IMG/VR virus record: IMGVR_UViG_3300010299_000019
Span: 1 to 37,580 of that record
DNA from: a virus
Strand: one strand, 5' to 3'
DNA: 37,580 nt
The notes beneath the pieces are model-generated. The model had not been told where the DNA came from. It worked only from the letters and a program-made list of their open reading frames with translations, and did not search any database. Of the stretch, positions 9,432 to 22,718 are shown in pieces (positions within the stretch are counted from its first letter, which is position 1; each line of letters opens with the position of its first letter). The position numbers and the translations under genes were made by a program.

Positions 9432-9628
9432 CAGATAAATTAAAAAATATTATATCAAACATTATAGGCTTAATAGTTGTATTAGTTAGTTTTTACTTAT
9501 ACATATTTAAAGACTTAGAAACTGCTAAGTTCTGCATTGCTTTGGTTGTTTCTTTAGCTTTATTTATGTTTAAAGCACCTGTATTAAAAGACTATATTAA
9601 AAAGTTTTTAGATAAGAAGTTAAAGTGA
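9428..9628 (+). CDS. Two-helix membrane protein, holin candidate
   Basis: The 66-residue protein has two membrane helices (about 8-27 and 33-48), a short turn (KDLETAK) and a basic tail ending LDKKLK, a classic small holin layout. It overlaps the DUF5675 gene by 4 bases and the next gene through GTGA. Together with the 8538 protein it could be a holin/antiholin pair. Confidence 0.65.
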   Translation: MTDKLKNIISNIIGLIVVLVSFYLYIFKDLETAKFCIALVVSLALFMFKAPVLKDYIKKFLDKKLK

Positions 9629-10182
9629 AACTAAAAGATTTTATAATAACAGCCTTAGTAATTGTAATTATTTATTTATTCACTTGCAATAAACCTAAAG
9701 TAATAACCGAAACTAAAACAGTTACAAGGGTTGATTCACTTTATTTTAGAGATACAATAGTACAAACAATAAAAGTTCCTAAGAAAGAGTTAGTATTTAT
9801 TAAAGAAACACCGTTTAACATAGATTTAAGCGATACCAGCGAACTTTCTGCTCGTTTTAGTACTTATGTATATGAACAAAAAGATAGTTTGTTAGAAGCT
9901 CTTATTTCAATCGAAGCAGATAAACGACCCGATAAAGTTAGCTTTGAGTATGAATTTAAGAACTTTACTTTAAGAGATTCAATTTATGTAAGAGATTCGG
10001 TTTATAATGAAGTTAAAAAGTCTTTTTTAAGTGTTGGAGCTACTTTGGTTGGTAGTAAAACTTCGTTTGGGTTTGCTCCAGTAATTCAATACAGCCATAA
10101 AAAAGGCAATAATTACTCATTAGGTTATGATTTAATTAACAATCAATTTCACGTAGGGTTTAGTAAAAAGATAAGCCATTAA
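9625..10182 (+). CDS. Membrane-anchored periplasmic protein, spanin candidate
   Basis: This 185-residue protein starts at GTG within GTGA at the end of the holin-like gene. Residues 1-21 are a hydrophobic N-terminus ending in YLFTC, so it is either a membrane anchor or a lipoprotein signal with Cys21. A charged helical middle follows. The last 50 residues are alternating polar/hydrophobic strands (SFLSVGATLVGSKTSFGFAP, then YSLGYDL and FHVGFSKK) resembling outer-membrane beta-hairpins. As last gene of the lysis cassette it could link inner and outer membranes, acting as a spanin. This is inference; no known spanin family is recognised. Confidence 0.6.
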   Translation: MKLKDFIITALVIVIIYLFTCNKPKVITETKTVTRVDSLYFRDTIVQTIKVPKKELVFIKETPFNIDLSDTSELSARFSTYVYEQKDSLLEALISIEADKRPDKVSFEYEFKNFTLRDSIYVRDSVYNEVKKSFLSVGATLVGSKTSFGFAPVIQYSHKKGNNYSLGYDLINNQFHVGFSKKISH

Positions 10183-10239
10183 AACGGCTTCCAACATCCG
10201 ATATAAAAACATCTAAAGACGTTTCATATCTTGGTGTTA
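10181..10239. repeat. 59-bp hairpin repeat, copy 1
   Basis: Copy 1 matches copy 2 (11043-11101) at 55 of 59 positions without gaps. It begins AAAACGGCTTCCAACA and ends CATATCTTGGTGTTA. Internal complementarity (AACATC/GGTGTT outer arm, ATAT/ATAT, AAACATCT/AGACGTTT inner arm with one mismatch or wobble) folds it into one imperfect hairpin. It lies just beyond the 3' end of the minus-strand Dam gene. Confidence 0.85.
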
Positions 10240-10272
10240 TGCACAATAATTAAAAAAAAGGGTGACTCACTC

Positions 10273-11031
10273 TTACGCAAAAAGAGATTGTTGTATATTT
10301 TGATAATTAGTTACAAGTATTTCTGTTCTAAAGTTTTTCAAATTACCTCTTTCTCCTATTATAATAATGTTTAAGTTTCTTTCTTTTGCTTGTTCCAAAA
10401 TAAATGGGTGGTCAAATTCACTCATTGCAAACTTGAATTTACTTTTTTCTAAACAATCAAATAAGTCTTTACTATCATTTTCGTTAAATGAGTTGCTATA
10501 ATTATCGTCAGTTCCTAAATACGGTGGGTCACAGTAAATAAAACCGTTACCAGCATTTTTATCTCTTAACTGCTTAAAAAAATCCCTAAAATCTTTATTA
10601 CTAAATTGAACGTCTTTTATAAGTTCAAATGTTTTATCTATCCTTTCTTGAAATATACTTTTAGGGTTTTCAGCCCCAAAACACATAGAAGCACCAGCAC
10701 CCATATAAGTAAAATTACTTAAAAATATGAACCTTAACGCTTGCCTTATACTTTCGGATTCTTTGTGTTTTTTCCAATGTTCTAAAAACGCATTGTGTAC
10801 AGGTAAAATTTCCATCTGTTTTTTAAGTTCTTCTTTTTGTAATGTAACTACTTGAAACAAGTTAAATACATCGTTATCAAAATCATTTACAATATTATAT
10901 TTTACTTTCGGCTTATTAAAGAACATTCCGCCAGCACCAAAAAAAGGCTCAATATACATTGTATGTTTAGGAAAATGCTTTTGTATTTCCTTTGCTATTT
11001 TGCTTTTGTTTCCCATTCTTCTTAATATCAT
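10273..11031 (-). CDS. dam: Dam-type (D12 class) adenine-N6 DNA methyltransferase
   Basis: The 252-residue enzyme transfers a methyl group from SAM to adenine in DNA. The alpha-class motif order is clear: RRMGNK at 4-9, SAM-binding EPFFGAGG at 28-35, and catalytic DPPY at 168-171. GATC specificity is typical for the family but cannot be read here. It is one of only two minus-strand genes, and both of its ends lie next to copies of the 59-bp repeat. This suggests it arrived as a unit with the repeat. It probably shields phage DNA from host restriction. Confidence 0.92.
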   Translation of the reverse strand: MILRRMGNKSKIAKEIQKHFPKHTMYIEPFFGAGGMFFNKPKVKYNIVNDFDNDVFNLFQVVTLQKEELKKQMEILPVHNAFLEHWKKHKESESIRQALRFIFLSNFTYMGAGASMCFGAENPKSIFQERIDKTFELIKDVQFSNKDFRDFFKQLRDKNAGNGFIYCDPPYLGTDDNYSNSFNENDSKDLFDCLEKSKFKFAMSEFDHPFILEQAKERNLNIIIIGERGNLKNFRTEILVTNYQNIQQSLFA

Positions 11032-11042
11032 ATCTTAAATTT

Positions 11043-11101
11043 AAAACGGCTTCCAACACCACATATCAAAACATCTAAAGACGTTTCATATCTTGGTGTT
11101 A
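11043..11101. repeat. 59-bp hairpin repeat, copy 2
   Basis: This is the second copy of the repeat at 10181-10239, in the same orientation and 862 bases away. Here the outer arm AACACC/GGTGTT is perfect. Read on the minus strand, the inner arm AAACGTCT/AGATGTTT pairs completely if one G-U is allowed. It sits just after the 3' end of the beta-class methyltransferase and just before the Dam gene, as a cassette-boundary element would. Confidence 0.85.
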
Positions 11102-11110
11102 GTGGCAATG

Positions 11111-11917
11111 CTACCCGAACACACGAGCAACTGCCAAATCATAATATTTTACCTCTTTTTCAATTCCAATGAATTTTCGGTTCAACTCTTTTGCTCCTAA
11201 GCAAGTTGTTCCACTACCCATTGTGTTATCCAAAACAAGTTCGCCATCATTTGAGTAAGTGCTAATAATCCATTTCATCAACTCCAAAGGTTTTTCTGTT
11301 GGGTGCTGTTTTGCCTTTTGGTTTGCGTTGCTAATCTCAATAATGGAAGTCGGATAGTATTCATTATTAAACTTCACATCTTCATTATAACTTCCGTATG
11401 TTCCTTTATTCCCACCAACATAACCACCTTTTTTTCGTGGCTTTCCTCGTTCTTCCATTATTGGATTATACGTTGTTTTCCCTTTGGCAAAAATCAAAAT
11501 ATCTTCGTGCCTTCTCAATGGCATTTTTTTGGCGTTTAAAAATCCGCTTGTGCTTTTCTTATCCCATATCAGTTTATACTTAAACCACTTTGGGTTGCTC
11601 ATCATTAATACGCCTGTAAAAATACCATCAGCAGTTAAAACTATGCAACCGTTTTCACTTAATATTCTACTGTAATTTTGCCAAAGTAAATCCAAAGGCA
11701 AAACACTATCCCACTTGTTTTGAGTAGTTCCATAAGGCAAATCTGCTAAAATAAGTTGAACCGATTTATCAGGAATAAGAGGTAAAATATCCATACAATC
11801 TGCATTGAACAAAGCACAGCCACTAACATCGGCTATATGCAATAGCGGTTTCGGTGCGTTGTTCAACATTTGTTCTATTATCATAATTCGTTCTATATTT
11901 AAAGTTTTGTTTTTCAA
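11111..11917 (-). CDS. Beta-class DNA methyltransferase (N6-adenine or N4-cytosine)
   Basis: In this 268-residue enzyme the catalytic motif DLPYG (59-63, a DPPY variant) comes before the SAM-binding motif DNTMGSGTT (230-238), with HPTEKPLELM (205-214) between them, which is the beta-class order. The target base and site cannot be deduced. The gene looks less AT-rich than its neighbours, suggesting separate origin. A second possible start is the Met at residue 12. It lies upstream of, and in line with, the Dam gene, separated by a 59-bp hairpin repeat. Confidence 0.9.
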   Translation of the reverse strand: MKNKTLNIERIMIIEQMLNNAPKPLLHIADVSGCALFNADCMDILPLIPDKSVQLILADLPYGTTQNKWDSVLPLDLLWQNYSRILSENGCIVLTADGIFTGVLMMSNPKWFKYKLIWDKKSTSGFLNAKKMPLRRHEDILIFAKGKTTYNPIMEERGKPRKKGGYVGGNKGTYGSYNEDVKFNNEYYPTSIIEISNANQKAKQHPTEKPLELMKWIISTYSNDGELVLDNTMGSGTTCLGAKELNRKFIGIEKEVKYYDLAVARVFG

Positions 11918-11921
11918 ATCC

Positions 11922-11942
11922 GCTACTGCACATAGCCGTAGC
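11922..11942 (-). repeat. Short hairpin upstream of the methyltransferase
   Basis: GCTAC (11922-11926) and GTAGC (11938-11942) can pair around an 11-base loop, just upstream of the minus-strand start at 11917. The nearby ACGGCT words resemble those in the 59-bp repeats, so this may be a decayed boundary element or a regulatory hairpin in the 5' leader. The evidence is slight. Confidence 0.35.
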
Positions 11943-11966
11943 CGTTAGCAAACATACAACAATTAT

Positions 11967-11996
11967 TTTGAAATAAAAAATATTTGTTTATATTTG
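11967..11996 (+). promoter_or_regulatory. Early promoter with both Bacteroidota boxes
   Basis: TTTG (11967-11970) and TATATTTG (11989-11996) are separated by 18 bases, within the 17-23 range reported for Flavobacterium promoters (TTG/TAnnTTTG). This is the only promoter in the window with a convincing -33 box. Transcription would start near 12000-12003, giving a leader of about 8-11 bases before ATG 12011. The in-frame TTG at 11984 lies inside the promoter and cannot be the start. Confidence 0.75.
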
Positions 11997-12010
11997 TACA
12001 AACTAAAATT

Positions 12011-12958
12011 ATGGCAGGTCAAGGACAACAAGTTGCTTATGAAAAGTTTGTAATTGAAAGATTAGAAGTTGAGCCAAACAACACAAGGTTAGCAGAGATA
12101 GTACAGCAAGAATTTTCATTAGACACTCCATTAGACACAATCCGCAGGACTGTATCAAGGATAAGAAGTAGAAACTCTACTCAATTAAAGAAACCGATAA
12201 AGCGACTATTCTACGACATCGAAACAAGTTACGCAAAGGGTTGGTTTTGGCGACCATCTTACAACACTAGAATAACCTATCAACAAATAATAGAACATTC
12301 TAAAATAATTTGTATAAGTTGGAAGTGGCAAGGCGAGGATAAAATCTACAATCTAAAGTGGGATAAAGACCAATGCGATAAACAAATGATTTATGAGTTT
12401 ATAAAAGTATTAGACAAAGCAGATGAAGTAGTAGCTCATAATGGAGATAGATTTGATGAGAAGTGGATAAGAAAAAGAGCAATATACCACCGTTTACCTA
12501 TGCGACCTAATTACAGAAGTTTAGATACATTAAAAAAGGCTAAAGCACATTTTGGTTTTGATTCTAATAGATTAGATGATTTAGGCGATTATTTAGGAGT
12601 AGGTAGAAAGTTGGAAAATGAAAAGGGCTTATGGGATAAAGTAGTACAATTTAATAATCGTAAAGCACTACAAAAAATGGTTGATTATTGCGATGTAGAT
12701 GTTATCTTATTAGAAGATGTTTATACAGTAATGATGCCATACATTAAAAAGAACACAAATTTTGCTGTATTAAAGGGTGGTAATAAATTCGATTGCCCTG
12801 AATGTGCTAGTCCTCACACCCACTTAGTAAAAACATACACAACAGAAGCAGGAACATTTAAGCGAGTAATGGAGTGTAAGAGTTGTGATAATAACTTTAG
12901 CATAAATAATAGCACATATCAAAATTATTTAGTAAAACAAATGACTAATGACAACTAA
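12011..12958 (+). CDS. DEDD-type 3'-5' exonuclease with C-terminal zinc ribbon
   Basis: The 315-residue protein has an RNase H-like exonuclease fold. The motifs are FYDIET (Asp69, Glu71), AHNGDRFDEKW (Asn144 to Asp149) and YCDVD (Tyr226, Asp230). Together they give the DEDDy set that binds two metal ions. An N-terminal region (1-60) resembles a helix-turn-helix, and the C-terminus has CPEC (262-265) and CKSC (289-292), a probable zinc ribbon. The ATG at 12011 follows the promoter by 14 bases. It is first gene of the early operon and may serve recombination, repair or degradation of host DNA. Confidence 0.85.
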   Translation: MAGQGQQVAYEKFVIERLEVEPNNTRLAEIVQQEFSLDTPLDTIRRTVSRIRSRNSTQLKKPIKRLFYDIETSYAKGWFWRPSYNTRITYQQIIEHSKIICISWKWQGEDKIYNLKWDKDQCDKQMIYEFIKVLDKADEVVAHNGDRFDEKWIRKRAIYHRLPMRPNYRSLDTLKKAKAHFGFDSNRLDDLGDYLGVGRKLENEKGLWDKVVQFNNRKALQKMVDYCDVDVILLEDVYTVMMPYIKKNTNFAVLKGGNKFDCPECASPHTHLVKTYTTEAGTFKRVMECKSCDNNFSINNSTYQNYLVKQMTNDN

Positions 12959-21639: not shown

Positions 21640-21648
21640 ATAAATTGA

Positions 21649-21747
21649 ATGAAACAACCTACTAAAATAACAATACTATTAGCAATAATAACAGGAGCAA
21701 TTATAGGCTATACTTTAGCCTTGTTAATACTTATGAATTATGGATAA
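21649..21747 (+). CDS. 32-residue membrane peptide, copy 1
   Basis: ATG 21649 to TAA 21747 encodes a single membrane helix (KITILLAIITGAIIGYTLAL) with a short MKQPT head and LMNYG tail. A near-copy at 22608-22706 encodes the same head and tail. Its end, ATGGATAA, contains the start of the PP-loop gene (21740). Because the peptide is conserved between copies mainly at the DNA level, recent duplication is likely; function is unknown. Confidence 0.6.
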   Translation: MKQPTKITILLAIITGAIIGYTLALLILMNYG

Positions 21748-22624
21748 AAAAAATATAATAGGTTGGTGGTCTGGTGGTATTACAAGTGCTGTTGCTTGTA
21801 AGTTAGCAATAGATTTGTATGGTAAAGAAAATGTGAGGATTATATTTATTGATACAATGAATGAAGATGATGATACTTATAGATTTAAAGATGATTGTTC
21901 TAAATGGTATGGAATAGAAATAGAAACAATAAGCAGTACAAAACACAAAAGTGTTCAAGCTGTCTGGCGTAGATATAAAGCGTTAAATAATGCTAAAGGA
22001 GCTGTTTGTAGTTCTGAAATGAAAAGGCAGGTGCGTGAAACTTGGGAAAAAACAAACACTTGGGAGTATCAAGTATTTGGATTTGATTTAGATGAAAGTA
22101 AAAGGGCGAAGGGTATGGCATTAAATCACCCACAAACAAAACCTATCTTCCCTTTAATGATGTATGGATTAAATAAAAAAGACTGCATTAAAATAGTTCA
22201 AAAAGAAAACATTGAAGTACCTAATATGTATAAATTAGGGTTTTTAAATAATAATTGCTTTAAGACTGGTTGTGTGCAAGGTGGAATAGGTTATTGGCAA
22301 AAGATGTATAGAGATTTTCCTAATAAATTTGATGCAATGGCTAAAATGGAGCACGAATTAACAGATGTTAAGGGTAAGCCAGTAACAATGTTGAAAGACC
22401 AAAGTTCTGGTGGTGGATTAGTGTTTTTAAAACCACATCCTAACTACCCCAACATTAAAGATATATCAATGATGAAAGGTAGAGAACCTAAACCCTTAGT
22501 TGATTGTAATGGGTTTTGTGGAGTTAATGATTTAGATGAAAGACTTGAAACAGAAAAAGAAATAAATTATCAAATGGATATATTTGATGTAATCGAAGCA
22601 AAAGCAAATGAAACCCCCAACTAA
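21740..22624 (+). CDS. PP-loop ATPase, PAPS-reductase-like
   Basis: This 294-residue protein has the PP-loop SGGITS (11-16) and the IIFIDTMNEDDDTYRF segment (34-49) typical of PAPS-reductase/DndC-type adenylating enzymes. Cysteines at about 90, 173, 178, 256 and 260 (NCFKTGC, CNGFC) could hold an iron-sulfur cluster or act in sulfur transfer. Phage members may serve in nucleic-acid or nucleotide modification or in counter-defence; the substrate cannot be told. The gene lies exactly between two copies of a 32-residue peptide gene. Confidence 0.8.
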   Translation: MDKKNIIGWWSGGITSAVACKLAIDLYGKENVRIIFIDTMNEDDDTYRFKDDCSKWYGIEIETISSTKHKSVQAVWRRYKALNNAKGAVCSSEMKRQVRETWEKTNTWEYQVFGFDLDESKRAKGMALNHPQTKPIFPLMMYGLNKKDCIKIVQKENIEVPNMYKLGFLNNNCFKTGCVQGGIGYWQKMYRDFPNKFDAMAKMEHELTDVKGKPVTMLKDQSSGGGLVFLKPHPNYPNIKDISMMKGREPKPLVDCNGFCGVNDLDERLETEKEINYQMDIFDVIEAKANETPN

Positions 22625-22706
22625 AATAACAATACTATTAGCAATAATAACAGGAACTACTTTAGCTTATTATATAGCTTTATTAATACTTATGAATTAT
22701 GGATAA
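22608..22706 (+). CDS. 32-residue membrane peptide, copy 2
   Basis: This encodes KITILLAIITGTTLAYYIAL with head MKPPT and tail LMNYG, a near-copy of 21649-21747. The DNA is identical over about 36 bases from ACTAAAATAACAATACTATT and over the last 24 bases; copies are 959 bases apart. The copy also keeps an ATGGATAAA start remnant that now runs only 9 codons, as if a second PP-loop gene once began here. It overlaps the PP-loop gene by 17 bases. Confidence 0.6.
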   Translation: MKPPTKITILLAIITGTTLAYYIALLILMNYG

Positions 22707-22718
22707 ATCATTAAAACT

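Follow-up and report, generated by a model that had tools for sequence, protein, structure and literature searches.

Phages are known to carry clusters of attC sites without an integron-integrase (CALINs), among them the Polaribacter phage P12002L with its methyltransferase (MTase) cassettes, and IntI1 recombined one of the two P12002L attC sites that were tested (Qi et al., 2023, PMC9892861). Integrons are reported to be nearly absent from Bacteroidetes, the one complete integron found with IntegronFinder 2.0 being that of Salinibacter (PMC9024848). A second relevant system is Muminvirus, in whose study LMO9 phages were described that plate poorly on LMO6 and are without one particular MTase (Nilsson et al., 2020, PMC7077304).

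Here we analyse a 37,580-base virus record (the window, meaning the whole stretch of DNA), which encodes tail and terminase genes and whose closest isolate relatives are phages of Cellulophaga, Olleya, Flavobacterium and Polaribacter. Like P12002L, it belongs to a flavobacterial lytic phage with DNA methyltransferase cassettes on the minus strand and attC-type sites without an integrase, and a scan of P12002L recovered the window's hairpin family there, including between its MTase genes. With Muminvirus it shares units of MTase and small ORFs beside a PF13482 exonuclease, the site family and a homologous MTase joined at GTTAGTGGC. The region is probably an array of two integron-like gene cassettes that a flavobacterial phage carries without an integrase, the recombinase coming from elsewhere.

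The array and its hairpin sites

The region comprises the following features:

9,625–10,182, plus strand: Rz-like gene, convergent, its 3′ end abutting repeat copy 1 (assigned from sequence)
10,179–10,239, minus strand: attC-like site 3 (repeat copy 1), from the repeat and a covariance model match at 10,187–10,243; end of the array, overlapping the end of the Rz-like gene
10,237–11,098, minus strand: putative Dam cassette (copy 2 hairpin and Dam gene), 862 nt, proposed from layout
10,273–11,031, minus strand: Dam-type N6-adenine methyltransferase, PF02086; 86% amino acid identity to relative L004
11,041–11,101, minus strand: attC-like site 2 (repeat copy 2), from the repeat, the fold and a covariance model match at 11,049–11,105
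11,099–11,944, minus strand: MTase cassette, 846 nt, bounded by the TAA^C cuts of site 1 and copy 2
11,111–11,884, minus strand: beta-class DNA methyltransferase, PF01555 (N6_N4_Mtase); residues 1–19 are a leader encoded within site 1
11,819–11,951, minus strand: attC-like site 1 (hairpin 11,947–11,824), TAACG-N5-GGCTATGTGCAGTAGCGG ... CCGCTATTGCATATAGCC-GA-TGTTAGTGGC; score 22.6, covariance model 20.3 bits
11,893–11,974, minus strand: 5′ array border (ATTTCAAAATAATTGTTGTATGTTTGCTRACGG...), common to phage G002, 76% over 85 bp
11,984–12,958, plus strand: exonuclease at the array border, PF13482 / phrog_403

The initial annotation described two 59-bp hairpins flanking the Dam gene. Both 59-mers are present (10,181–10,239 and 11,043–11,101), inside ungapped direct repeats of 61 nt and 93% identity, and its statement that the MTase and Dam genes are the only ones on the minus strand agrees with our count of plausible genes, judged among the larger ORFs. 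On that strand copy 2 folds much better than its shuffles (z −3.5), whereas copy 1 alone folds no better (z −0.6). A scan for TAAC, a hairpin and GTT added a site that the annotation had overlooked: site 1, a stronger hairpin diverged from copies 1 and 2. The array thus consists of tandem one-gene units with attC-like folded sites between them, three sites and two genes, all on the minus strand. The Rz-like gene at its end has no match in Pfam or PHROG. In the window (10,173–10,190) and in L022 (about 10,999–11,030), the last site is followed, after its right-hand box, by a short hairpin with loop CGTTTTAATG, a 10-mer that is also the loop usually found in the short sites.

Sites of this kind, seen in cellular Flavobacteriaceae and in many viral contigs, share one architecture: TAACG, about five unpaired nucleotides, a stem that often starts with GTATAT, a variable loop, the stem partner, about two unpaired nucleotides, and TGTTA. 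Forty matches were found in 13 viral loci, compared with 0.6 in Markov controls, and phage G688 carries 12 tandem sites within ~6 kb on a single strand (controls 0). In an alignment of 18 short sites 98.6% of the cells of the two helices are paired, 21 cells are changed on both sides, and the covariation score reaches 0.364, compared with 0.154 ± 0.019 for shuffles and at most 0.11 for slid controls. A covariance model built on these 18 sites, none of them from the window, was searched against 143 kb; its three top matches in the window are the three minus-strand hairpins (11,819–11,951, 20.3 bits; 10,187–10,243, 16.3 bits; 11,049–11,105, 15.2 bits), the next best scoring 12.7 bits. Because a model free of the window ranks exactly these three highest, chance is ruled out as their explanation. 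No Rfam family matches the sites, and searches with the repeat in public phages and genomes returned little; a genome-contig match (L006) was discarded as a chance coding match.

Phage and chromosomal sites alike place G opposite T at two fixed positions 5 nt apart (C:A when read on the other strand) and have no consistent bulges, and these positions may be the counterpart of the extrahelical bases of attC. A hallmark of integron cassettes is that the first box is complementary to the inverse box of the attC belonging to the cassette itself. Such complementarity of own-cassette end boxes (at least 4 of 5 outer bases) is found in 18 of the 31 neighbouring pairs from phages (14% after shuffling) and in 7 of the 11 chromosomal pairs (9% after shuffling). 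The R boxes of the window (GTTAGTGGC, GTTGGAAGC, GTGCATAAC, GCCACTAAC) fit the canonical RYYYAAC / GTTRRRY only at AAC/GTT. The integron origin put forward earlier as a hypothesis is partly supported: it agrees with the attC-like hairpins and the layout of a small cassette array without integrase, but not with the boxes beyond GTT/AAC.

The loop of site 1, between arms GGCTATGTGCAGTAGCGG and CCGCTATTGCATATAGCC, holds the start codon of the MTase, so that its first 19 residues (MIIEQMLNNAPKPLLHIAD) are encoded within the hairpin; alignment with MTase homologues from other hosts begins only at residue 24–25. For the leader peptide, frame and length are conserved in eight of eight cases under only weak purifying selection (mean dN 0.40, dS 0.45), and since this selection is only weak we claim no function for the peptide itself. 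With the start codon and N-terminal leader inside the site, acquisition of a new site would also alter the N-terminus of the protein. Searches of 395 Bacteroidota genomes and of phage and plasmid collections did not recover the DNA of the KIA leader. A common leader of 31–33 residues, encoded in a long hairpin, is also seen in small viral proteins (L022, 10,719–10,958 on the plus strand and about 1,006–770 on the minus strand; L026–L035), whose C-terminal parts are unrelated after GTTAG.

Cassette boundaries and natural turnover

Six loci with a common 5′ hairpin and nine with a common 3′ end entered the comparison of MTase units. At the 5′ TAAC boundary mean identity falls from 97.5% just inside the unit to 31.7% just outside, and at the 3′ TAAC boundary from 91.3% to 28.1%, while the end boxes of the window's MTase cassette, taken from its coordinates (GTTAGTGGC/GCCACTAAC), are complementary at 9 of 9 positions. 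By these alignments the beta-class MTase unit (site 1 and gene) behaves as a genuine cassette, occurring in at least six contexts with homology ending at TAAC boxes. The hairpin and leader can also separate from the MTase body at GTTAGTGGC, with exchange at GTTAG: against L094 the window has 53% identity to the left of this point and 94% to the right, and against L097–L100 and L108 it has 87–92% to the left and 57–65% to the right. A second such separation is found in L028 and L035, which have a common tail and different leaders. Crossover at GTTAG inside the ORF was our first assumption and was dropped when the comparison of isolates put the crossover at TAAC.

That comparison concerns the first 9 kb of the Muminvirus isolates mumin, filifjonk and tooticki, lytic Flavobacterium phages that are nearly identical there outside their arrays, which also adjoin a PF13482 exonuclease. 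The difference between mumin6-1 and mumin6-3 is a single 506-nt unit of hairpin and gene; filifjonk has two additional stretches relative to mumin6-1 (1581 and 412 nt), and in tooticki 1206 nt including a C5-MTase replace 776 nt of mumin6-3. All breakpoints fall within the box TAAC(GTT) or CTTATAAC, and 7–8 bp are shared at them, so that deletion by microhomology is a possible cause of the single losses. Since the breakpoints lie in the 5′ box of the site, read with the gene, the phage cassette is a hairpin and the gene that follows it, which reverses the gene-plus-3′-hairpin unit originally proposed.

Phage G002, whose DNA is otherwise almost unrelated to that of the window, shares with it copy 1 and the Rz tail (135 bp, 93%) as well as the 5′ border, and carries an 81-aa ORF and one repeat copy where the window carries MTase and Dam; the borders thus correspond and the cassettes within them differ. 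A relative without Dam and with one remaining copy, which the initial annotation had suggested looking for, does exist in form: L003 has one repeat copy and keeps the 3′ tail of Rz, and an unrelated 81-aa cassette replaces both MTase and Dam. Elsewhere in these genomes, a PAPS reductase-like gene of the window lies between the copies of a 101-nt direct repeat (86%; 21,648–21,748 and 22,607–22,707) that encodes a small membrane peptide (MKQPTKITILLAIITGAIIGYTLALLILMNYG); in place of this gene G002 has a lipoprotein-like ORF, with a single copy of the repeat (L034, 6,366–6,474). Directly 3′ of the last cassette, the arrays of L094 and L004 end in TAAC(T)ACCGTATAACC, which may be a shared end of arrays or a border resembling attI.

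The Dam gene, originally taken for the mobile unit between the two copies, is indeed laid out in this way. The end boxes of its unit (GTTGGAAGC / GTGCATAAC) are not complementary, however, and homology to the one relative found, L004, is limited to the ORF (11,032–10,268, 83% DNA identity), with different hairpins flanking Dam there; a unit boundary at a crossover box was not found for Dam in other contexts. Because only the ORF is common and the boxes do not pair, we infer no more than a putative mobility for Dam, and it is the MTase, bounded by site 1 and copy 2, that is the well-supported cassette.

Recombinases, proposed mechanism and alternatives

The window contains no integrase or tyrosine recombinase and no PF00589 match, and among 14 virus records searched G002 alone exceeds the Pfam cut-off for a recombinase. 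None of 299 Flavobacteriaceae genomes has a protein above the TIGR02249 (IntI) cut-off, but 151 of them contain a site pattern, with ~4 control matches. Neighbourhoods of up to 19 kb around the 17 top-scoring recombinases hold 16 sites, compared with 0 in controls, and for recombinases with sites nearby the best model is NF040815 (XerA-type recombinase/integron integrase), whose cut-off is exceeded by seven of eight. By a count that rests on listed coordinates transcribed by hand, 28 of the 76 sites among those listed have a listed recombinase no more than 30 kb away, with ~1.6 expected, and 26 share one geometry. In L073–L089, XerA/IntI-like recombinase genes of Flavobacteriaceae are followed by ORFs in the same direction with hairpin sites between them. 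Many of the top recombinase matches are close to a contig end, at a distance of ~450 bp, which suggests assembly breaks at neighbouring repeats.

Chromosomal XerA/IntI-like recombinases beside such arrays are the likely source of the activity on the phage sites. Each cassette would consist of a folded recombination site and the gene after it; the single-stranded site would fold into its hairpin, a tyrosine recombinase from outside the phage, most likely the host's chromosomal XerA/IntI-like enzyme, would cut one strand at TAA^C, and joining of the cut strand to another site would insert, remove or exchange cassettes. The methyltransferases carried in this way probably shield phage DNA from host restriction. 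Genes in chromosomal cassettes run opposite to their sites (both neighbours in 13 of 19), whereas phage genes run in the same direction (36 of 42), so phage cassettes would be reversed relative to chromosomal ones if one enzyme serves both. Tentatively, and with some doubt, we suggest that Flavobacteriaceae own an integron class of XerA-type recombinases and AAC-N5/N2-GTT hairpin arrays, present in about half of the sampled species and outside the standard attC/IntI models, from which lytic phages take up cassettes in reverse, so that the site 5′ of a gene may supply a start codon and an exchangeable N-terminal leader, reshuffling anti-restriction genes.

Turnover could instead reflect homologous or microhomology-mediated recombination between repeated hairpins without any dedicated recombinase. 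The 7–8 bp common at the breakpoints accord with this, as does the 93% identity of copies 1 and 2 over 61 nt, which would suffice for phage annealing or RecA-type exchange to drop Dam in one step. Yet adjacent hairpins of other arrays are mostly unlike each other and the breakpoints nonetheless fall in the short box, unrelated cassettes replace inserts, which goes beyond mere deletion, and chromosomal arrays of this site family adjoin recombinases; we regard this explanation as improbable.

It is very unlikely that the repeats are merely transcription terminators or RNA processing hairpins after unrelated genes, with no role in recombination, the possibility by which the first reading proposed to be judged. 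The sites are intergenic and a terminator-like hairpin with a T-rich tail, AAGCCGTTTTAATGGCTT, does lie 3′ of copy 1, but the site hairpin itself has no T run after it, and site 1 carries a start codon and does not trail a stop. Homology changes precisely at TAAC boxes in many contexts, isolates gain and lose whole units there, and the complementarity of end boxes within a cassette would be needless for a terminator. Single-strand transposition also employs hairpin ends, and single genes flanked by hairpins could be passengers of an IS200/IS605-like element whose ends the hairpins form. This seems scarcely credible given that a non-exhaustive search recognised no HUH transposase near the array, that sites arranged in tandem, one for each gene, and complementarity between the two end boxes of a cassette are as in integrons, and that the chromosomal arrays are adjoined by tyrosine recombinases.

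Relation to known systems

Sites of a divergent family that adjoin recombinases in roughly half of the sampled Flavobacteriaceae species would give access to a large pool of cassettes so far unseen. For laboratory work, the Muminvirus isolates offer a system in which cassette exchange alters a methyltransferase content already tied in the literature to plating efficiency, and gain, loss and exchange of methylating genes at these sites could alter which bacterial defences phages survive. The text of Nilsson et al. (2020) makes no mention of integron, insertion or indel, so the Muminvirus region has apparently gone unrecognised as a cassette array, and a search of the open-access literature on integrons with Flavobacteriaceae and attC found no account of such arrays.

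The window differs from the P12002L CALIN in boxes that depart from GTTRRRY and in an MTase start codon within the site, and from Muminvirus in that the latter has longer arrays, with up to nine scored sites. Sedentary chromosomal integrons with IntI, for example those of Vibrio, resemble the present arrays in having cassettes of one gene each in tandem, AAC/GTT boxes in their folded sites and complementarity of own-cassette boxes, whereas the sites described here apparently have two G:T positions instead of the bulged extrahelical bases of Vibrio-type attC. The Flavobacteriaceae arrays also depart from Vibrio-type integrons in having no IntI above TIGR02249, in neighbouring recombinases that best fit NF040815, and in a recombinase and cassettes that run in the same direction. 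Phage-borne attC clusters as such are already known (Qi et al., 2023); what is new is a site family outside GTTRRRY, start codons within sites, and lytic phages whose cassettes turn over naturally.
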